The translations under genes and the position numbers were made by a program. Below are positions 10,174 through 19,360 of a stretch of DNA of 64,000 nucleotides, in pieces. Each line of letters begins with the position of its first letter. Position 1 is the stretch's first letter. Where the stretch lies: positions 1 through 64,000 of the forward strand of contig NZ_JEOE01000001.1 of the NCBI RefSeq assembly GCF_000708885.1, in the 5' to 3' direction. The notes beneath the pieces were generated by a model, which saw only the letters and a list, made by a program, of their open reading frames with translations, did no database searches and was not told the origin of the DNA. The stretch comes from Cellulomonas sp. HZM. Lineage in GTDB: Bacteria; Actinomycetota; Actinomycetes; Actinomycetales; Cellulomonadaceae.

Positions 10174-10496
10174 CGCGTCCCCCTGGCGTCGAGCGCACGT
10201 GTGACCGCCCGGTGGACGATCATCGTCAGGTAGGACAGGAACGTCACGAACACGAGCTCCTCGAGCGGGAAGTGGGGCGCGAGCTCGATCCCCAGCAGCG
10301 CCGACCCCTCCCCGCGTCCGTAGTAGCCGGCGACGAGTGCGAGGACGTCCCACAGCACGAAGAACGCGACTCCGACGAGGACCACCACGACGCCCCGCCC
10401 GACCTCGCCGGCGGCGAGGAAGAGGCGGTACCGCACGTCGAGCGCGACGACCCCCGCGATCGACACGAGCTCGACGAGCAGGTACGCGCCCCTCAC
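10170..10496 (-). CDS. crtYe: Lycopene cyclase small subunit (CrtYe/CrtYc-like)
   Basis: A 108-residue, three-helix membrane protein of the lycopene cyclase domain family. Visible marks are FLAAGEV, FVLWDVLALVAGYYGRG and HFPLEELVFVTFLSYLTMI; the PLEEL acidic pair is the conserved feature of these subunits. It pairs with the following subunit to cyclise lycopene or its C50 derivative. The GTG start overlaps the crtI stop (GTGA) and the end overlaps crtYf by 4 bp, implying coupled translation and 1:1 subunits. Confidence 0.87.
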   Translation of the reverse strand: MRGAYLLVELVSIAGVVALDVRYRLFLAAGEVGRGVVVVLVGVAFFVLWDVLALVAGYYGRGEGSALLGIELAPHFPLEELVFVTFLSYLTMIVHRAVTRALDARGTR

Positions 10497-12034
10497 GCGA
10501 CCGCCTCCTGCGACGCGCCCGGCTCGGGCAGCGGCCGCGACGACGTGTCGCCCCGAAGCCGCTTGACCACGTTCTCCGCACTGATCAGGCACATCGGGAG
10601 CCCGATGCCCGGGACGGTTGTCCCTCCGGCGTAGAGCAGCCCGCGCACGCGCCGTGACACGTTCCGTCCGCGCAGCATCGCGGACTGCCGAAGCGTGTGC
10701 GCGGGCCCGAGGGCGCCGCCGGACCACGACGACAGGTCGCGTGCGAAGTCGGCCGGGCCCACGGTCCGGCGCACGACGACACGCTGCGCGAGGTCCGGGA
10801 CGCCGAGCCGCGACGCCAGCGTCGCGACCGCACGGTCCGCGACCTGCTCGACGAGCGGGCTTCCGCCGCTCCCGATCGTCGGGTCCGCCGGTACCGGGAC
10901 CAGGACGAAGAGGTTCTCGTGGCCGACCGGTGCGACGGAGGGGTCGGTGCGCGACGGCGCGCACACGTACATCGACGCCGGATCGGGGATGCGCCGGTGC
11001 GGGCCGAGCACGGCGTCGAAGTTGGCGCGCCAGTCCGACGTGAAGAACATCGAGTGGTGCGCGAGGCCGGGGAGCCGTCCGCGGACGCCGAGCATCGCGA
11101 GCACCGCGCCCGGGCCGGGGTCGCGGCGGTCCCACCAGCTCTGCGGGTAGGTCTGCAGCTCGCGCGGGAGGAGCCGCGTCTCGAGGTCGTGCAGGTCTCC
11201 TGCGCCCACCACGGCGTCGGCGTCGACCCGAGCGGTGCCGCCGCCCGCGTCGACCTCGACGCCGTCGACCTGAGCGTCCGTCCCGACGAGCACGCGTGTC
11301 ACGCGAGCGCGCGTCCGCACCCGCACACCGAGGCGGCCGCACACCCGCACGAGGGCGTCGACGACCGTGCCGAACCCGCCGCGCGGGTACAGGACACCCT
11401 GCGTGAGGTCGCAGTGGCTCATCAGGTGGTAGAGGCTCGGTGCCCTCTCGGGGGACGTCCCGAGGAACACGGCCGGGTAGCCGAGCACCTGTCGCAGCCG
11501 AGGGTCGCGGAACCGGCGGGCGACGTGCCGTTCGAGGCTCGTGGTGAGCAGGCCGGCGAGCCGCGGCAGGTGCCGGACCAGCTCCGTCGACGTCAGCGAA
11601 CCGGGGGAGAACGTCGTGTACAGGAAGCGTCGCAGCGCGAGGTCGTACGCCTGGTGTGCCGACCTGCGGTACGCGGCGAGCGCCGGCCCGGCGCCCGGCT
11701 CGATCGCCTCGAAGGCCGCGTCGGCCGCGCCCGTCACGACGTCGAGCGGCTCGTCGTACCCGTCGAACCACACCCGGTAGGCGGGGTCGAGCCGCACGAG
11801 GTCGAGCTCGTCGTCGGTGCTCGTGCCGAGCATCGCGAAGAAGTGGTCGAACACCTCGCGCATCAGGAACCACGACGGACCGGTGTCGAACGTGAACCCG
11901 TCCGAGCGCCAGGTCCCGGCGCGCCCGCCGACCTCCTGGCGCTGCTCGAGCACCTCGACGTCGTGCCCGTCCCGGGCCAGGAGCGCAGCCGTCGCGAGCC
12001 CCGCGACGCCGGCACCGATCACGACGACCCGCAT
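10493..12034 (-). CDS. crtI: Phytoene desaturase
   Basis: CrtI introduces four double bonds into phytoene to make lycopene, using FAD at the membrane. The 513 residues start with the dinucleotide-binding motif VVVIGAGVAGLATAALLARDG and the following EQRQEVGGRAG, and contain YPRGGFGTVVDALV. They end with the bacterial-type desaturase signature GLLYAGGTTVPGIGLPMCLISAENV. The ATG at 12034 shares one base with the crtB stop (TGATG). It lies in the middle of the crt operon between crtB and the cyclase pair. Confidence 0.95.
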   Translation of the reverse strand: MRVVVIGAGVAGLATAALLARDGHDVEVLEQRQEVGGRAGTWRSDGFTFDTGPSWFLMREVFDHFFAMLGTSTDDELDLVRLDPAYRVWFDGYDEPLDVVTGAADAAFEAIEPGAGPALAAYRRSAHQAYDLALRRFLYTTFSPGSLTSTELVRHLPRLAGLLTTSLERHVARRFRDPRLRQVLGYPAVFLGTSPERAPSLYHLMSHCDLTQGVLYPRGGFGTVVDALVRVCGRLGVRVRTRARVTRVLVGTDAQVDGVEVDAGGGTARVDADAVVGAGDLHDLETRLLPRELQTYPQSWWDRRDPGPGAVLAMLGVRGRLPGLAHHSMFFTSDWRANFDAVLGPHRRIPDPASMYVCAPSRTDPSVAPVGHENLFVLVPVPADPTIGSGGSPLVEQVADRAVATLASRLGVPDLAQRVVVRRTVGPADFARDLSSWSGGALGPAHTLRQSAMLRGRNVSRRVRGLLYAGGTTVPGIGLPMCLISAENVVKRLRGDTSSRPLPEPGASQEAVA

Positions 12035-12930
12035 CAGTGCGCCCCCAGCAGCGAGCGGGCGACGATGAGGGACTTCGTCGTGACGCCGACGCTCACCCGG
12101 GTGCCGGCGATCGTCGCCGCGGGGGTGCGCCGCAGCCGCGCCGAGAGGGCCGCGAACAGGTCGTGCGCGCACCGCACCGCCCGGCGGCTCGACGGCGGCA
12201 GCAGCGCTATCGCGTCGGCCGCGATCGCGAGGTCGGTGTCGATGTCGTCGAGCAGGTCGTCGCGCTGGTCGTCGGTGAGGTGGTGGGCGTCGACGCCGGG
12301 GAGGTAGTCGCGTCCGAGGTCGTCGTGGTCGGCGCCCAGGTCGCGCAGGAAGTTGACCTTCTGGAACGCGGCGCCCAGTCGGCGCGCGGCCGGGGCGAGG
12401 TCGTCGAACCGTCGTGCGGCGTCGGCCTCGTCGGCCAGGAACGCGCGCAGGCACATGAGGCCGACGACCTCGGCCGAGCCGTAGACGTAACGGTCGAGAG
12501 ACCGTGCGTCGTGCGCCGTGCGGGACAGGTCGGTGCGCATCGAGGCGAAGAACGGCCCGACGAGCTCCTCGTCGATCCCGGTGCGCACGGCCGTACGCGC
12601 GAAGGCGTGGACGACGAGGTTGGTCGAGAAGCCACGGGCCGTCGCCCGGCGGACCTCGTCCTCGAGGTCGTCGAGGAGCTCTCCGCGCGCGGAGGGCCCG
12701 AGACCGAGGTCCGGCGCGTCGACGATCTCGTCGGCCACGCGCACGAGCCCGTAGACGTTGCGCACGTGCGTGCGGACCGGCTCGTGGAGCAGGCGGCAGG
12801 CTCGCGCGAACGATGTCGAGTACTCCTCGACGACCTGCGCCGAGGCACGACTGGCGGCGGCGTCGTACAGCGTGCGCGACCCGGCCGACGCGTCTCGCCG
12901 GGCGTGACCTCGCCCGGACAGCGCGGTCAC
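12034..12930 (-). CDS. crtB: Phytoene synthase
   Basis: CrtB joins two geranylgeranyl diphosphates head to head into phytoene. The 298 residues show both Asp-rich substrate motifs of the squalene/phytoene synthase fold: RVADEIVDAP in the first half and NFLRDLGADHDDLGRDYLP near the middle, plus the YCYGSAEVVG-like segment YVYGSAEVVGLMCL. The start is GTG 12930, overlapping the crtE stop by 4 bp. Earlier in-frame codons would extend into crtE with non-homologous sequence. Confidence 0.95.
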   Translation of the reverse strand: MTALSGRGHARRDASAGSRTLYDAAASRASAQVVEEYSTSFARACRLLHEPVRTHVRNVYGLVRVADEIVDAPDLGLGPSARGELLDDLEDEVRRATARGFSTNLVVHAFARTAVRTGIDEELVGPFFASMRTDLSRTAHDARSLDRYVYGSAEVVGLMCLRAFLADEADAARRFDDLAPAARRLGAAFQKVNFLRDLGADHDDLGRDYLPGVDAHHLTDDQRDDLLDDIDTDLAIAADAIALLPPSSRRAVRCAHDLFAALSARLRRTPAATIAGTRVSVGVTTKSLIVARSLLGAH

Positions 12931-13934
12931 GCCGCCCTCCCGGGCGAGCGCCGGCCCCAGCCGGACACGCGGTCGACGACGTCGTCGAGCCCGGCCTCCT
13001 GCGCGAGCGCGCGTGCCGCGTCGAGGTGCCCGTCGACGAGGTCCTCGACGAACGCGCGTGCCCCGCACGCCTCGAGCGCGGCGCGCAGCACGTCGGCGTC
13101 CTCGCACGAGAGGTCGGGGTCGCCGAGGTGCTGCTCGATCGTCGGCCACTGCGGCGTGGAGGCGGCGTGGGCCACGAGCGCGGTCATCTTGCCCTCCCGC
13201 AGGTCCGACAGGGCCGACTTGCCGGTCACGACCTCGTCGCCGAACACGCCCGCGAGGTCGTCGCACAGCTGGAACGCGATGCCGAGCACACGTCCCAGCT
13301 CGCCGAGCAGCCCGAGCGTGTCGTCGTCGGCCCCCGCCATGACGCCGGCAGCCTGCAGCGGAAGGCAGAACGAGTACGCGGCGGTCTTGGCCTCGGCGAC
13401 GGCGATCGTCTCCGCGACGCTCGGCACGCGGGTGCCGAGCCCCAGGTGCACGTCCTGCAGCTCACCCGCGGCGCTGACGCGCACGGCGTCGTCGAGCAGA
13501 GCGAGCAGGCGCGTGCGCACGGCCGGCGAGACCGGCGCGTCGGCGACCGCCAGCACCGCGCCGACGAGCTCGAGGTCGCCGGCGAGCACGGCCGCAGCCT
13601 GCCCGTACCCCGCCGCGGCGACCGGTCCTGCGCCCGCGCGGGTGGCCCTCGCGACGAACTCGCCCGCCACGTTGTCCCGACCACGTCGCCGCAGGTCGTG
13701 GTCGATCACGTCGTCGTGGACGACGAACGCGGCGTGCAGCAGCTCGAGGGCGTCGCCGACGTGCCGCGCGGCCGACTCGTCGTCGCCCCCGAGCACGCGG
13801 TACGTCTCCTGCAGCAGCCGAGGGCGCAGCCGGCGCCCTCCGCCCGACGTCGTGGCCATCGCGGTCCACAGCGCCTGGTTCTCCGGGCCGAGGTGCGTCG
13901 TGCCGGCCGCGCCACGTGCGAGGAAGTCGTCCAC
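12927..13934 (-). CDS. crtE: Geranylgeranyl diphosphate synthase
   Basis: This trans-isoprenyl diphosphate synthase of 335 residues supplies GGPP to CrtB. The first Asp-rich motif is HDDVIDHDLRRRG (DDxxD) and the second is LCDDLAGVFGDE; both bind Mg and diphosphate. Short side chains upstream of the first motif (LLHAAFVVHDD) fit C20 chain length, although C30-C40 products cannot be excluded by eye. The GTG start at 13934 is one base after the idi stop. Its place between idi and crtB fixes the role. Confidence 0.92.
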   Translation of the reverse strand: MDDFLARGAAGTTHLGPENQALWTAMATTSGGGRRLRPRLLQETYRVLGGDDESAARHVGDALELLHAAFVVHDDVIDHDLRRRGRDNVAGEFVARATRAGAGPVAAAGYGQAAAVLAGDLELVGAVLAVADAPVSPAVRTRLLALLDDAVRVSAAGELQDVHLGLGTRVPSVAETIAVAEAKTAAYSFCLPLQAAGVMAGADDDTLGLLGELGRVLGIAFQLCDDLAGVFGDEVVTGKSALSDLREGKMTALVAHAASTPQWPTIEQHLGDPDLSCEDADVLRAALEACGARAFVEDLVDGHLDAARALAQEAGLDDVVDRVSGWGRRSPGRAA

Positions 13935-13935
13935 G

Positions 13936-14511
13936 TCAGCCCACCATCCCGACCAGGTCGGAGGGGCTCGTCGTCGTGTCGTCTTCCACCAGGTCGCCCA
14001 GCTGGAGCACCTGCTCGACCATCCACGGGCTCAACGCCCACGGTGCGGCGTCGACGGCGCGGCCGAGCTCCTGCGGCGTGACCCACCGCAGCTCGGCGAC
14101 CTCAGCGGGGTCGGGGTCGGGCGCCCGTCGGGTCGTGGCGAACCACACCGGGCACACCTCGTTCTCGACGACACCCGAGGCGTCGGTCGCGCAGTACCGG
14201 AAGCGGGGCAGCACGAGCTCGAGGTCGTCGAGCACGAGCGCGAGCTCGGAAGCCGCGTGCCGGACCACGGCCGCTCGCGGTTCCTCACCAGGACGGGGGT
14301 GGCCGCAGAAGGAGTTGGTCCAGACGCCGGGCCACGTGCGCTTGGCGAGCGAGCGTCGAGTCAGCAGCACGCGACCCTGCGAGTCGAACACGTAGCAGGA
14401 GAACGCGAGGTGGAGCGGCGTCGCGTGGTCGTGCACGTGTGCGCGGGGTGCCCGGCCGTTCGGGCGCCCCGCCGCGTCCAGGAGGACCACGTCGTCGGGC
14501 ATCATCGGCAT
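13936..14511 (-). CDS. idi: Isopentenyl-diphosphate delta-isomerase, type I
   Basis: This Nudix-fold isomerase interconverts IPP and DMAPP, priming prenyl chain growth. The 191 residues carry the type I catalytic cysteine motif TNSFCGHP and a modified Nudix box (RPGEEPRAAVVRHAASELAL), and the downstream metal-binding ENEVCPVW segment with the second catalytic Glu. The ATG at 14511 has GAGGAG 7 bases upstream. It heads the crt operon, divergent from the MarR gene. Including idi in the pigment operon gives a self-sufficient supply of starter units. Confidence 0.95.
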   Translation of the reverse strand: MPMMPDDVVLLDAAGRPNGRAPRAHVHDHATPLHLAFSCYVFDSQGRVLLTRRSLAKRTWPGVWTNSFCGHPRPGEEPRAAVVRHAASELALVLDDLELVLPRFRYCATDASGVVENEVCPVWFATTRRAPDPDPAEVAELRWVTPQELGRAVDAAPWALSPWMVEQVLQLGDLVEDDTTTSPSDLVGMVG

Positions 14512-14547
14512 GTGTGCACTCCTCTAGTACGTCCGTCAGCCGTCGTT

Positions 14548-14566
14548 TCGCTAGCCAGGCTAGCGA
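14548..14566. promoter_or_regulatory. 19-bp perfect palindrome between idi and the MarR gene (likely operator)
   Basis: TCGCTAGCC-A-GGCTAGCGA is symmetric around base 14557 with 9-bp arms. It covers the position expected for the -35 element of the MarR gene (its -10-like TAGTAT is at 14574-14579) and lies 37 bp before idi. The size suits a MarR dimer. Repression of both directions by the adjacent regulator is inferred, by analogy with CrtR of corynebacteria. Confidence 0.65.
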
Positions 14567-14585
14567 GTGCGCCTAGTATCGCCGC

Positions 14586-15101
14586 ATGAGGGCGACCCCG
14601 CACTTCTGGTACGACGACGAGTCGGTCGTGCCGGTGCTCGAGGCCCTGCGCGAGTTCCGCAGGGCCGACGCGGACATGCGACGGCGGCTCAGCGCCGGCA
14701 TGGAGATGAACCTGACGGACGTGCAGGCCGTGCGCTACGTCGTCGCCACGGAGCAGGCCGGCGCACCTCCCAGCGCGGCCGACCTCGCTCGACACCTCAG
14801 GATCTCGACGGCGTCCACCACCAAGTTGCTCGACAGGCTCGAACTATCGGGCCACGTCGTGCGGCGCCCGCACCCGACCGATGGCAGGGCCGTCGTGGTG
14901 TGCAGCACAGACCACTCGCACGCCGAGATCCGCCGCCGCCTCACCTCCATGCACGCCGCGATGGCGGATGCCGTGCGGGCCGTCCCCGAGGGGGCCCGAC
15001 CCGCGCTCGTCGACTTCCTCACCACGATGGCCCACGTGCTCGACGAGCAGGACGTCGCACCGCTCGAACCGGCAGGCGGGCCGCGTGGCGCGACAGGTTG
15101 A
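14586..15101 (+). CDS. MarR-family regulator, probable carotenoid operon repressor
   Basis: A 171-residue winged-helix regulator. The helix-turn-helix is near residues 55-80 (SAADLARHLRISTASTTKLLDRLE), followed by the wing with RRPHPTDGRAVVV, the standard MarR DR-x-D-GR-like signature. It is divergent from idi-crt with a single palindrome between them, as CrtR is in Corynebacterium glutamicum. Its transcript may be leaderless: TAGTAT ends 6 bases before the ATG and there is no Shine-Dalgarno. The ligand is unknown; in corynebacteria the inducer is GGPP-like, which is only an analogy here. Confidence 0.82.
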   Translation: MRATPHFWYDDESVVPVLEALREFRRADADMRRRLSAGMEMNLTDVQAVRYVVATEQAGAPPSAADLARHLRISTASTTKLLDRLELSGHVVRRPHPTDGRAVVVCSTDHSHAEIRRRLTSMHAAMADAVRAVPEGARPALVDFLTTMAHVLDEQDVAPLEPAGGPRGATG

Positions 15102-15736: not shown

Positions 15737-16780
15737 TCAGCTCGGCGCAGCCTCGGCCCGGTGCTGCGGCCTGCGGACCCGGGGCTGCGGCACCTGCGGT
15801 CCGCGCTGCTGCGGCACGCCCGGCTCGGGCGTCGCCGGAAGGGGGGCCGCCCGGGCGACCTCGTCGACGAGCACCTGCCAGCAGCGTGCGGCCCGCCGGA
15901 GCTCGCTCGCGACGACGTCGGGTGCCACGTGCCCGGTGACGTGCTCCCCGGCGGCGTCGTCGAGCGCGTCGAGCCCGTTGTCCACCGCCCGACGTGCGGC
16001 GCGGTAGCTCGAGCCCTCCCGGTCCGCCGGGCTCGTCACGACCTCCAGTGCGGCTGCGCCGTCGTAGAACTCGGCGCGCACGAGCTCGAGCGCGGCCGGG
16101 CGCTCGAAGAGCGTGAGCCGCTGCGCGGCGTCGGCGACCGCGTCGGCGACTGACGACGTCGCGAGGCGCTCGACCGTGCCGGCCATCGCGTCGGGATCGA
16201 CCTGGAGCCGCACGAGCAGCGCGACGGTCCGCCCTAGCACGGCCTCGCGCCGGTCGCGCTGCATCCGGCGACGGTGCTCCGCCTCGCGAGAACGCTCGCC
16301 CTCGCGCAGCGCGGCCGCCGCGGCCTCCCGCTCCCGGCGCTCCATGAGCGCGCGTACCTCGGTCGCGTGGCGCGAGACCCGGGAGATGCCGAGCAGCACC
16401 TCGCGCTCGCTCGTCTCCTGCCCCGCGTGGACCAGGTCGCGCGCGGCGACGTTGACCGGGGTCGCGAACCCCTCGTCGGTGTAGGCGAACAGCGCCACGG
16501 CGTGCCGGTCGGCCCACAGGACGGCCGTCTTGGCGAAGCCGGAGTGCGAGTAGAACACCGCGGTGCGCGCCCCGGCGACGATGCGGAGGTGCTCGAGCTG
16601 ACGGGTGTCGACGGGGGAGCGGCTGCGGTCGACGAGGCCCGCGAAGTCGAGCCCCACGAGGTCGACGTCGTCGCCCGCCACCGAGGCGTGCACGTCCACG
16701 CGGGCGAGGACCAGCCGCGCGTGGCGTTCGGCGAACCGCTGCGCCTCGCGCCACCGGGGGTCCCTGCCGACCGCGCCCAC
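15737..16780 (-). CDS. Protein with a degenerate Mrr-type restriction endonuclease-like domain
   Basis: A 347-residue soluble protein. Residues about 35-115 resemble the Mrr/PD-(D/E)xK fold: DDVDLVG matches the motif with the metal-binding Asp, and SGFAKTAVLWADRHAVALFAYTDEG matches the conserved region after the core. The expected QxK strand, however, reads GLVDRSRS, so the catalytic Gln and Lys are missing. A charged helical segment (about 140-185, ERREREAAAAALREGERSRE) follows, then an Ala-rich domain and a Pro/Gln/Arg tail. Nuclease activity is therefore unlikely; a DNA-binding or scaffolding role is a guess. The GTG start at 16780 has a purine-rich site just upstream. Confidence 0.6.
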   Translation of the reverse strand: MGAVGRDPRWREAQRFAERHARLVLARVDVHASVAGDDVDLVGLDFAGLVDRSRSPVDTRQLEHLRIVAGARTAVFYSHSGFAKTAVLWADRHAVALFAYTDEGFATPVNVAARDLVHAGQETSEREVLLGISRVSRHATEVRALMERREREAAAAALREGERSREAEHRRRMQRDRREAVLGRTVALLVRLQVDPDAMAGTVERLATSSVADAVADAAQRLTLFERPAALELVRAEFYDGAAALEVVTSPADREGSSYRAARRAVDNGLDALDDAAGEHVTGHVAPDVVASELRRAARCWQVLVDEVARAAPLPATPEPGVPQQRGPQVPQPRVRRPQHRAEAAPS

Positions 16781-16873
16781 GTCCCTCTCCCGTCGGTGCC
16801 GCGCACGCGCGTGGCCAGAGCGACGCTACGCGGGTCAGCGAGCCCGGTGCGGGGTGAATGTGCAGGTCGTGGG

Positions 16874-16901
16874 CCATCCGGGTGACCCAGAGCGGACGAA
16901 T
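16874..16901 (+). promoter_or_regulatory. SigK-type promoter candidate of the sigma operon
   Basis: CCATCC, a 16-base spacer, then ACGAAT. As I recall it, the mycobacterial SigK consensus is CCATCC-N16/17-CCGAAT; this site matches 11 of 12 positions. The start site would be near 16908, about 170 bases before the sigma gene. The 299-bp gap 16781-17079 contains no other recognised gene. Confidence 0.6.
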
Positions 16902-17079
16902 CCGGCGGTCGCGGGTGCGCCGTCTCACCCGTTGGTCGACGCGACCCACCTCTCATGGGAGCGCTTCCGCCTCGCGCCATCGGCGCGCTCAGGTCGCGCA
17001 CGGGGCGCGGCGCCCGCAGGCTGGTGCCCGACGCCGCGGGGCGTCGCACGACCCCGACGCAGGAGACCACGAGGCGAAG

Positions 17080-17631
17080 GTGCCCCAGGACGCTGACGAC
17101 GAGCTCGCACGTCGGTTCCGCGCGGGCGACGACGACGCCCTGGCCGCGGTCTACCAGCGCTGGTCCCCGCTCGTGCACACGCTGGCGCGCCAGTCGCTGG
17201 GTTCCGACGCCGACGCGGACGACGTGACGCAGCAGGTGTTCGTCGGTGCGTGGCGGGGGCGGGAACGCTTCGACCCGGCGCGTGCCCGCCTGTCCACGTG
17301 GCTCGTCGGCATCGCCCGCCACGCGATCGTCGACGTGCACCGCTCGCGCTCCGGCCGGGCGCGTCTCGCGGTCGCGGTCGCGGCCGGTGCAGGACGCGTC
17401 GTCGAGGACCGCCTCGCCGACGAGGTCGTCGACCGGGTGCTCGTGGCCGACGAGCTGGAGCGCCTCGACGAGCCCGGACGCACCGTGCTGCGCATGGCGT
17501 TCGACCGCGGTCTCACGCACACCGAGATCGCCGACGAGCTGGCGATGCCGCTCGGTACGGTCAAGAGCCACGTCCGGCGAGGACTGGCACGACTGCGACA
17601 GCGACTGGAGGTGGACGGTGCCACACCCTGA
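17080..17631 (+). CDS. ECF sigma factor, SigK-like
   Basis: A 183-residue extracytoplasmic-function sigma factor. Region 2 covers about residues 8-85 (DELARRFRAGDDDALAAVY, DVTQQVFVGAWRG, FDPARARLSTWLVGIARH) and region 4 covers about 125-180 (RTVLRMAFDRGLTHTEIADEL, GTVKSHVRRGLARLR). GTG 17080 is chosen because GAGG lies 5 bases upstream and the protein then begins like its family; upstream codons read as low-complexity Arg/Ser. The end overlaps the anti-sigma start by 14 bp. With an RskA-type anti-sigma and a fasciclin gene next to it, the closest described system is SigK-RskA. Confidence 0.88.
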   Translation: MPQDADDELARRFRAGDDDALAAVYQRWSPLVHTLARQSLGSDADADDVTQQVFVGAWRGRERFDPARARLSTWLVGIARHAIVDVHRSRSGRARLAVAVAAGAGRVVEDRLADEVVDRVLVADELERLDEPGRTVLRMAFDRGLTHTEIADELAMPLGTVKSHVRRGLARLRQRLEVDGATP

Positions 17632-18331
17632 ACCCGACGATCTCGCGCTCGCAGCGCTCGGCGAGCAGCCGTCCCCGGAGGCGGTCGCGCACCTCCAGGG
17701 GTGCGAACGCTGCCGCGACGAGCTCGCGGCGCTGCGCCGGACCGTCGCGGCGGGCCGCGCGATGGTTCCCGGCGACGCTCCCCGAGCGCCCGGAGGTCAC
17801 GTGTGGGCGGCGATCGAGGACGAGCTCGCCGCGGACGGGGCGCCCCGGGGCGCGCGGCAGGGCACGGCAGGGGCGCCGGCGCCGGCTCCCGTGCCGCCGC
17901 GGGGCGTCCGCCGCTGGGTCGTCGCCGGGGTCGCGGCGGTCGTCGCGCTCGCCGTCGGGGTCGTCGTGGGCGTGGCCTGGTCACGGCGCGACCCGGGCAC
18001 GTCCGTCGCGCGCGCGGACCTCGTCGCGCTGCCGGCATGGACGGGCGCGTCGGGGTCGGCCGACCTGCGCTCGGTGCGCGGCGTCGACCGGTTGGAGGTG
18101 CGTGTCGCCGGCGCCCCGGGCGACGACGGGTTCCGGCAGGTGTGGCTGGCCACGTCCGACCTGCGGGGCATGGTGAGCCTCGGGGTGCTCGACGGCGGCT
18201 CGGGCACGTTCGACGTGCCGAGCGGCCTCGACCTGGACGCCTACACCGTCGTCGACGTGTCGCAGGAGCCGTTCGACGGCGATCCTGCCCACTCGGACGA
18301 CTCGGTGGTGCGGGGGACCCTCGAGCGCTGA
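17618..18331 (+). CDS. Membrane-bound anti-sigma factor, RskA-like
   Basis: A 237-residue single-pass protein. The N-terminal zinc-finger anti-sigma domain has H25, C29 and C32 (HLQGCERC). A Pro/Ala linker leads to one transmembrane helix at about 101-121, then an extracytoplasmic RskA-type domain (LPAWTGASGSADLRSVRG, LEVRVAGAP, FRQVWLATSD) of about 110 residues. It should hold the upstream sigma factor at the membrane until the outer domain is cleaved; that mechanism is known for RskA and inferred here. GTG 17618 has GGAGGT upstream and overlaps the sigma gene by 14 bp. Confidence 0.87.
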   Translation: MPHPEPDDLALAALGEQPSPEAVAHLQGCERCRDELAALRRTVAAGRAMVPGDAPRAPGGHVWAAIEDELAADGAPRGARQGTAGAPAPAPVPPRGVRRWVVAGVAAVVALAVGVVVGVAWSRRDPGTSVARADLVALPAWTGASGSADLRSVRGVDRLEVRVAGAPGDDGFRQVWLATSDLRGMVSLGVLDGGSGTFDVPSGLDLDAYTVVDVSQEPFDGDPAHSDDSVVRGTLER

Positions 18332-18352
18332 GCCGGTCGCCGCCCGGCCGCT

Positions 18353-18380
18353 GCATCCGGAGGCGCCACTTCTCCCGAAC
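18353..18380 (+). promoter_or_regulatory. SigK-type promoter candidate of the fasciclin gene
   Basis: GCATCC, a 16-base spacer, then CCGAAC. The spacer length is identical to the site at 16874 and 10 of 12 positions match the recalled SigK consensus. The predicted start site near 18386 leaves a leader of about 50 bases with GGAGGA before the ATG. It implies that the sigma factor directly drives the fasciclin gene. Confidence 0.55.
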
Positions 18381-18438
18381 ACACACCTGCAGGCGTCGTC
18401 CGGCGCCGCATCGAGCAGTGTGTGGAGGAGATCCGACG

Positions 18439-19107
18439 ATGAAGCTACGCCGCACCATCACCGCAACCACGGCGGCCCTTGCCCTCACGTTCGGTCTCGG
18501 GATCGGCCTCTCGCCGGGAGCACAGGCGGCGGCGCCTGCCGTGGCACCCGCGACGGCCCATCCCGGGACGAGGAGCCTGGCCGAGGTGCTCGCCGCCGAC
18601 GGGTCCCGCTTCGACCGCCGCTGGGGGGACTTCGACATCGTCGACGCCGCCGTGCGGGCCGTCCTCGCGGCCAAGCCGACGAGCCCCGTCGCGGTGCTCG
18701 CCGACGGCACCGTCCCGCTGACGGCCTTCCTGCCGACCGACGAGGCGTTCCGGGTGCTCGCGCACGACCTGACCCACCGCTGGTACCGCTCCGAGCAGCA
18801 GGTGTTCGGCGTCGTCGCGTCGCTCGGGATCGACACCGTCGAGCAGGTCCTGCTGTACCACGTGGTGCCGGGAACGACGATCACCGCGCGTGCTGCGCTC
18901 GCCTCCGACGGGGCGTCCCTGACCACGGCACAGGGAGGCTCGATCACGGTGGACGTGCTGTTCCGACCGCTGGGCATCGCGCAGCTCGTCGACAAGGACC
19001 CCGACGCTCCGAACCCGTTCCTGATCCCGTGGAAGCTCGACCTCAACACGGGGAACCTGCAGGTCGCTCACGGCATCTCGCGCGTCCTGCGACCGGTGGA
19101 CCTCTGA
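18439..19107 (+). CDS. Secreted fasciclin (FAS1)-domain protein
   Basis: The 222-residue precursor has a Sec signal peptide (KLRR followed by a hydrophobic core, with cleavage likely after AQA near residue 30). One FAS1 domain follows: the H1 box TAFLPTDEAF and the H2-like box VLLYHVVPGTTIT are clear, and the end is GNLQVAHGISRVLRPVDL. FAS1 proteins mediate surface adhesion; mycobacterial MPT70/MPT83 are related and are controlled by SigK. The SD GGAGGA precedes ATG 18439. No lipobox or anchor is visible, so release outside the cell is likely. Confidence 0.88.
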   Translation: MKLRRTITATTAALALTFGLGIGLSPGAQAAAPAVAPATAHPGTRSLAEVLAADGSRFDRRWGDFDIVDAAVRAVLAAKPTSPVAVLADGTVPLTAFLPTDEAFRVLAHDLTHRWYRSEQQVFGVVASLGIDTVEQVLLYHVVPGTTITARAALASDGASLTTAQGGSITVDVLFRPLGIAQLVDKDPDAPNPFLIPWKLDLNTGNLQVAHGISRVLRPVDL

Positions 19108-19139
19108 CGGCATGGCCCGGGCGTCAGCGCCCGAGACCG

Positions 19140-19177
19140 ACGGAAGCCGTTCCCGATCGATCGGGAACGGCTTCCGT
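19140..19177. terminator. 38-bp perfect palindrome, bidirectional terminator
   Basis: Two 19-bp arms (ACGGAAGCCGTTCCCGATC and its complement) meet without a spacer, forming a very stable hairpin between the plus-strand fasciclin gene and the minus-strand tRNA genes that end at 19191. The T-run is weak on either side, as usual in GC-rich actinobacteria. Confidence 0.75.
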
Positions 19178-19190
19178 CCTGCTGTGATGC

Positions 19191-19265
19191 TGGTGGGCGA
19201 TACTGGGATCGAACCAGTGACCTCTTCCGTGTCAGGGAAGCGCGCTACCGCTGCGCCAATCGCCC
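19191..19265 (-). tRNA. tRNA-Val (anticodon GAC)
   Basis: Minus-strand cloverleaf with acceptor GGGCGAT/ATCGCCC, D-loop GCGCAGCGGTAGCGC, anticodon stem CTTCC-GGAAG enclosing CTGACAC (anticodon GAC) and T-loop GGTTCGATCCC. The 3' CCA is encoded. It reads GUC and GUU valine codons. It is the third of three minus-strand tRNA genes in transcription order (Gly, Cys, Val). Confidence 0.95.
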
Positions 19266-19289
19266 GGGGTACTGCTGGGTGAGCTTGCG

Positions 19290-19360
19290 AGGTGGAGATG
19301 GGATTCGAACCCACGTATACGGCTTTGCAGGCCGCTGCCTCGCCTCTCGGCCACTCCACC
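19290..19360 (-). tRNA. tRNA-Cys (anticodon GCA)
   Basis: Minus-strand cloverleaf with acceptor GGTGGAG/CTCCACC, a D-arm with GGCCGAGAGGCGAGGC, anticodon loop CTGCAAA (GCA) and T-loop GGTTCGAATCC. No CCA is encoded, unlike the neighbouring tRNA-Val. It is the second gene of the three-tRNA cluster. Confidence 0.94.

Follow-up and report, generated by a model that had tools for sequence, protein, structure and literature searches.

A sigma factor–anti-sigma–fasciclin locus in Cellulomonas sp. HZM appears to form a second switch separate from SigK

Gene content of the locus

The window analysed here is a stretch of 64,000 nt from Cellulomonas sp. HZM (contig C1 of a 3.56 Mb genome in 77 contigs). 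Three genes lie in a row on its plus strand: an ECF sigma factor gene (17080..17631, GTG start chosen here) with Pfam Sigma70_r2 and r4 domains, an RskA-like anti-sigma gene (17618..18331) that overlaps the sigma 3' end, and a gene for a 222-aa FAS1 (fasciclin) protein (18439..19107). The anti-sigma protein scored above the cut-off for PF10099 (RskA_C; 54.1 vs 29.4 bits), as expected from its original description as RskA-like, and below that for NCBIfam NF052375 (65 vs 100 bits). Its N-terminus carries an HxxxCxxC motif (HLQGCERC), and one hydrophobic segment, recognised by eye, precedes RskA_C. The FAS1 protein scored above the Pfam Fasciclin cut-off (PF02469; 31.4 vs 22 bits) and has a signal-peptide-like N-terminus by eye, in line with the secreted fasciclin protein originally predicted. 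Its predicted model matched FAS1 structures in Foldseek, indicating a FAS1 fold, and a PHROGs search with the protein gave zero matches.

Two promoter-like sites on the plus strand were found exactly where the original prediction had placed them (16874-16901 and 18353-18380), each with a 16-base spacer as claimed. The candidate sigma-operon promoter, CCATCC-N16-ACGAAT (16874..16901), lies in the divergent intergenic region, with 178 nt from its end to the sigma start. The FAS1 promoter, TGCATCC-N16-CCGAAC (18352..18380 when the leading T is included), ends 58 nt before the ATG. Simple scans of 16700-19300 detected no sigma-70-like promoters and no terminators.

Divergent from the sigma gene, the minus strand at 15740-16780 encodes a 347-aa protein without a match in Pfam (E<=0.001) or NCBIfam (E<=0.1). 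A perfect 36-nt inverted repeat, identified by eye, occupies 19141-19176, between the FAS1 gene and three minus-strand tRNA genes (Val, Cys, Gly). The repeat is perhaps a terminator common to the FAS1 and tRNA genes, for which the simple terminator scan was negative.

The FAS1 promoter belongs to a class conserved in relatives

Of 58 genomes, the window's own among them, 19 contain FAS1 relatives, and 50 named FAS1 loci, some from the same species or strain, were used for comparison. The element (T/C)GCATC(C/T)-N16-xxGAAx was located upstream in 39 of the 50, including one CGCATCC and two CATCT variants. A dyad count without any preset pattern, based on 40 deduplicated FAS1 upstream regions, ranked GCATC-N19-GAAG at the top (26/40), which is the same element as the TGCATCC-N16 class; the best dyad among 100 shuffled sets reached 7 at most. 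The spacing was strict, as TGCATCC-xSGAA(G/C) with N16 gave 43 sites in 37 of the 50 loci and 0-2 sites apiece at the other spacings between 12 and 20. The consensus of the class is TGCATCC-N16-(C/G)(C/G)GAA(G/C).

We also scanned 81 genomes of the genus for the strict element TGCATCC-N16-VSGAAG, and obtained 100 matches in 51 genomes vs 8 matches for the reversed control. Among the 59 genomes with the sigma factor (E<=1e-25), 47 had a strict match, as did 4 of the 22 without it; these counts come from related genomes and are thus not independent observations. The 12 sigma-bearing genomes without a strict match include those of the window and C. alba, whose -10 ends in C. The four genomes with a match despite no sigma match were G013, G034, G060 and G099; the first two are fragmented and have the anti-sigma gene. 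Among 36 same-genus genomes (own included), the seven without the anti-sigma all lacked both FAS1 and the strict motif, and FAS1 was found in 16 of the 29 anti-sigma-bearing genomes (13 without).

Within the 64 kb window, SCATCC-N16-MCGAAY occurs exactly twice in a search of both strands (shuffle mean 0.05; two reached in 0 of 100 shuffles). This test is post hoc because the pattern was derived from the same two sites, and the evidence was therefore built from relatives without the window. An independent matrix, trained on 42 distinct sites of relatives with none from the window and with two GCAACC sites excluded, was scored at 127,944 window positions. The FAS1 site ranked first of all of them with a score of 17.1, against 11.5 for the runner-up and 18.2 for the lowest-scoring training site. 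For the site upstream of the sigma gene, the rank was 11 when core positions were used and 29 with all positions, in a matrix that is too strict for variants because its training sites were collected with a fixed TGCATC...GAA. Judged by these comparisons, the assignment of the site at 18352-18380 as a promoter of the conserved class is well supported.

Genome-wide (3.56 Mb), SCATCC-N16-MSGAA gave five matches vs two for the reversed control; two of the five are the window sites, and two are one sequence present twice on contig C4. A search of the genome with up to two mismatches was uninformative (36 matches vs 94 for the control, without enrichment), and an N17 version of the pattern gave 12 matches vs 2 for the control, zero of them at this locus. 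Contigs C4, C14 and C54 showed identical pattern matches in pairs, one member on each strand, with a single pair on each of the latter two. The two pairs on C4 have coordinates that sum to 184,029 each, a relation that an inverted self-duplication of the contig, probably an assembly artefact, would produce.

Organization of the sigma operon in relatives

Of 58 genomes including the window's own, 37 had the anti-sigma; a first contig search with it had returned zero relatives. We took 28 sigma loci from relatives as longer stretches and read the gene order in seven of them. A DUF4397 gene was detected in 27 of the 28 stretches and a sortase gene in all 28, both identities being assigned by Pfam on one example of each. 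In 21 of the 28 loci, TGCATCC-N16-xxGAAx was found ahead of the sigma gene, at a distance of 1.71-2.03 kb. In five of the other seven, inspection by eye showed TGC(A/G)TCC-N16 and then either CGGAAG or xxGTAG, and in the remaining two (L142 and L149) the stretch begins 0.9-1.1 kb before the sigma gene. The predicted autoregulation of the sigma operon in relatives is thus well supported at the level of promoter sequence.

In the Cellulomonas relatives, the operons with DUF4397, sortase, ECF sigma and anti-sigma resemble the window locus in having a related sigma factor and the same promoter class, to which the FAS1 promoter also belongs, and their sigma factors, other than that of C. alba, share 52-62% identity with the window sigma. 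In contrast, the window and C. alba loci are without DUF4397 or sortase, and a DUF4397 search of the window's own genome was empty (run without a positive control). The three-gene form in the window looks like a reduced version of the DUF4397–sortase–sigma–anti-sigma operon.

In four Cellulomonas genomes (loci L144, L145, L150 and L151), the operon -10 has GTAG for GAAG, with TGCATCC-N16 kept. No FAS1 was found in the GTAG genomes G001, G015, G027 and G009.

The site upstream of the sigma gene

The closest relative found, C. alba MW4, has a sigma factor 78% identical to that of the window, the same three-gene order, and a FAS1 promoter with identical hexamers and spacer (GCATCC-N16-CCGAAC). 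The site at 16874 is absent in C. alba, and a relaxed scan of the ~740 nt before its sigma gene revealed neither promoter class; a different block nearer the sigma gene is common to the window and C. alba (by eye). Given this absence in the closest relative, we consider autoregulation of the window sigma gene through 16874-16901 plausible, at slightly less than an even chance.

The site may instead be a chance match, with the sigma operon under another promoter and only the FAS1 site functional, a reading that overlaps with our preferred explanation of the locus and that we hold to be a serious possibility, somewhat short of an even chance. The low matrix ranks, the conservation in C. alba of the other block in place of the site, and the long 5' leader (~170 nt) that would result all fit with chance, whereas the rarity of the pattern genome-wide, the intergenic position and correct orientation of the site, and the same promoter class at the head of the relatives' operon argue for function.

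The site is also mixed in character, with the -35 CCATCC of SigK and the N16 spacer of the other class. In genome G051, an identical CCATCC-N16-ACGAAT was found ~2.7 kb from sigK and just before a gene that resembles (by eye) a molybdopterin oxidoreductase gene detected in another relative (L146), so SigK could still control the 16874 site.

The window sigma is a paralogue apart from SigK

A genuine SigK is encoded on contig C3 of the same genome (NCBIfam SigK model NF007228, 255.8 bits), in a SigK-RskA-MPT70-like-DipZ-like cassette (L293; G000:C3:132655-135105). The RskA of this cassette scored 88.3 bits for RskA_C and 175.1 bits for NF052375, its FAS1 protein matches MPT70 at 6.5e-65, and the DipZ-like gene encodes DsbD_TM and thioredoxin-like domains. 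CCATCC-N15-CCGAAC sites precede both sigK and the DipZ-like gene; no such site was seen directly before the MPT70-like gene.

The spacer of 15 is general among SigK loci. We collected 42 stretches (30 of the best NF007228 matches and 12 longer ones, with 7 repeats, giving 35 distinct loci), in which C(C/A)ATCC-xCGAA(T/C) at N15 had 31 sites in 24 stretches, corresponding to 25 sites in 20 distinct loci. The same element was detected once each at N16 and N19 and zero times at the other spacings from 12 to 20. In the window's own genome, CMATCC-N15-VCGAAY gave six matches vs 0 for the control, none at the window genes. Two belong to the C3 cassette, one precedes a secreted-looking protein on C11 with a sub-threshold CHRD match (21.8 bits vs a cut-off of 24.1), one precedes a DUF4383 protein on C17, one precedes an unnamed gene, and one looks like chance.

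The SigK promoter consensus in mycobacteria is CCATCC-N16/17-CCGAAT. Veyrier 2008 is reportedly its source. This consensus, which both window sites had been predicted to fit, has 0 matches in the window and 0 in a scan of the 3.56 Mb genome. The two sites are real, yet their fit to SigK is inexact given these zero counts and the SigK spacer of 15; with N16, both fall outside the SigK form C(C/A)ATCC-N15-xCGAA(T/C).

The sigma proteins also differ in their profiles. The window sigma scored 108.9 bits against NF007228, with a cut-off of 226, and SigK was its second-best NCBIfam model. In a tree of 35 rows, which has no other ECF groups in it, 15 SigK rows are placed across a 100/99 branch from the window sigma, which is paired with that of C. 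alba at 98/95. Both of these sigma factors have 0 cysteines. The excerpted text of PMC7509140 gives Cys133/183 as the conserved cysteine pair of SigK; one of the 15 SigK tree rows is likewise without cysteine, so the pair is not strictly defining for SigK. For the FAS1 protein, no sequence match to MPT70 (PDB 1nyo) was obtained up to E=1, and MPT70 was a weak Foldseek match of the model (E 1.6e-3, rank 23); the protein is not of the MPT70/83 type. Based on the 108.9-bit score, the true SigK on C3 and the N15 vs N16 spacers, the window sigma is, as far as its sequence indicates, a cysteine-free paralogue apart from SigK.

A sigma cascade, in which SigK reads the 16874 site and the second sigma factor so produced transcribes FAS1, seems unlikely to us. 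The -35 of the 16874 site is that of SigK and the G051 site near sigK is identical, but the SigK-type sites of the own genome (searched at N15) and the SigK loci use N15, N16 occurs only once in SigK loci and at that very G051 site, and the 16874 site was not found in C. alba. The original reading of the sigma factor as SigK itself, with both sites as SigK promoters of a minimal SigK-RskA-fasciclin circuit, shares the architecture, the RskA_C domain, the second-best model and the mpt83-sigK-rskA cassette described as conserved (PMC7509140, in excerpt), but it is highly improbable and was rejected because it is contradicted by the separate true SigK cassette on C3, the SigK spacer of 15 rather than 16, and the tree split at the 100/99 branch.

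A probable circuit parallel to SigK-RskA-MPT83

The locus probably encodes an ECF sigma/membrane anti-sigma/FAS1 circuit that runs parallel to SigK-RskA-MPT83, with a paralogous sigma factor that has its own promoter code. It thus appears that this Cellulomonas-type bacterium has a second sigma–fasciclin switch, separate from the well-known SigK switch. The sigma, anti-sigma and FAS1 genes in a row, as originally described, hold, and the FAS1 site is in a conserved class that also heads the sigma operon in relatives; what changes is that neither the sigma factor nor the promoter class is that of SigK.

Gene order, domains, the conserved promoter class and its strict spacer are what can be read at the sequence level. 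As in other members of its family, the N-terminal cytoplasmic domain of the anti-sigma (with HxxxCxxC) would hold the sigma factor at the membrane until an outside signal leads to loss of the anti-sigma, and the freed sigma would then start transcription. Comparison with relatives suggests that this sigma class reads TGCATCC-N16-(C/G)(C/G)GAA(G/C), with the FAS1 gene as a target, and that in relatives this element also lies in front of the operon of the sigma factor itself (DUF4397–sortase–sigma–anti-sigma), which in the window and C. alba would be reduced to sigma–anti-sigma beside FAS1.

The SigK-RskA-MPT83/MPT70 system of mycobacteria, Rhodococcus and Yersinia is alike in its ECF sigma and co-encoded RskA_C anti-sigma, in a FAS1 target under a common -35/-10 element, and in a small regulon (as described in excerpts of PMC7509140 and PMC10540498). 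It differs from the window in several respects: the window has a cysteine-free paralogous sigma, an HxxxCxxC anti-sigma, a FAS1 protein without a match to MPT70, and a TGCATCC-N16 promoter where SigK has C(C/A)ATCC-N15, and a true SigK cassette coexists with it. For RskA, the N-terminal part inhibits, and a dual activator-inhibitor role is reported (PMC7509140, in excerpt).

By eye, the anti-sigma stretch HPEPDDLALAALGEQPSPEAVAHL resembles the AS19-2 motifs HLDPDQLALLA and GEPLDADERAHL of the ECF19 family, and is closer to AS19-2 than to AS19-1, the type of M. tuberculosis RskA, as far as these are given in the excerpted PMC7406223. M. tuberculosis SigK is placed in ECF18 in the excerpt of PMC7509140, and its anti-sigma is treated as AS19-1 in that of PMC7406223. 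Searches of the open-licence literature found no paper linking ECF19 or a Cellulomonas anti-sigma with fasciclin, and none joining DUF4397 with sortase, or ECF sigma, sortase and fasciclin; a search for SigK with CCATCC returned only papers unrelated by title.

Interest in SigK-RskA stems from its FAS1 targets, which are well-known antigens of mycobacteria; its inducing stimuli are called obscure in PMC9861118 (in excerpt). The presence of two parallel sets of sigma, RskA and FAS1 in one genome of the Cellulomonas type would make the circuit signal testable outside pathogens, as well as how paralogous sigma factors with near-identical promoters escape cross-talk.

Candidate further targets, possible rewiring of FAS1 genes and a possible pigment link

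The same element was found before several other genes in relatives. In four loci (L136-L139), it lies before a gene for polyprenyl synthase, with crtB and crtI matches behind that gene; a fifth such locus (L140) had no crt protein match. It also precedes secreted-looking lipocalins in L147 and L148, and is located ~150 nt upstream of the molybdopterin oxidoreductase gene in L146.

The promoter type of related FAS1 genes varies between genera, some having SigK-type sites and others the second code. Among the 11 named FAS1 loci without TGCATC-N16-GAA, five have a SigK-type CAATC(C/T)-N15-xCGAA (L203, L210, L214, L226 and L228), two have TGCATCC-N16-CGGAGAAG by eye (L224 and L225), two have FAS1 directly behind an anti-sigma gene (L221 and L229), and two have no recognised element (L223 and L231). 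The FAS1 gene of G051 likewise has a SigK-type site. In G039 and G057, a different sigma factor (37-39% identical) faces FAS1, and both divergent promoters are GCAACC-N16-xCGAAG. Given the SigK-type sites at some FAS1 loci and the GCAACC covariation in G039 and G057, related FAS1 genes appear, from their sequences, to have passed from one paralogous sigma factor to another and to have changed promoter as they did so.

The top Foldseek match of the window FAS1 model was AstaP-pink1 (E 1.8e-7), with other FAS1 folds close behind. In the excerpted PMC10147662, an AstaP homologue from a cyanobacterium is described as failing to bind carotenoid, and carotenoid binding by the modelled window FAS1 is speculative. 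Light induces mpk83/mpk70 in M. kansasii (PMC9861118, in excerpt), which, together with the crt link in relatives, weakly suggests photo-oxidative stress as the signal. The broadest reading would combine two insulated circuits (CCATCC-N15 vs TGCATCC-N16, differing by one spacer base and the -35 edge), one rewired FAS1 lineage, and a second regulon (in relatives: the carotenoid operon, lipocalin, DUF4397-sortase, molybdopterin oxidoreductase and FAS1) acting as a photo-oxidative or envelope-oxidation response, in which FAS1 would bind carotenoid or another lipid like algal AstaP; taken as a whole, we regard this as quite unlikely.

The window itself has a carotenoid cluster on the minus strand (10493-14511), ~2.5 kb from the sigma gene, with a crtI-like gene (Amino_oxidase), phytoene synthase, polyprenyl synthase and a NUDIX protein that we take to be idi. 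No promoter of the class was seen by eye in 14500-14640. In the four relatives with crt matches (L136-L139), a CTCAGTAxxCTGAG-type palindrome (in one case the variant CTCAGTAGGCTGAG) lies after the sigma-type promoter of the crtE-like gene, which suggests a second regulator on that promoter. A divergent MarR-type gene (14586-15101) is located beside the window cluster, and the gap between them contains the palindrome CGCTAGCCTGGCTAGCG, which could be the MarR operator.
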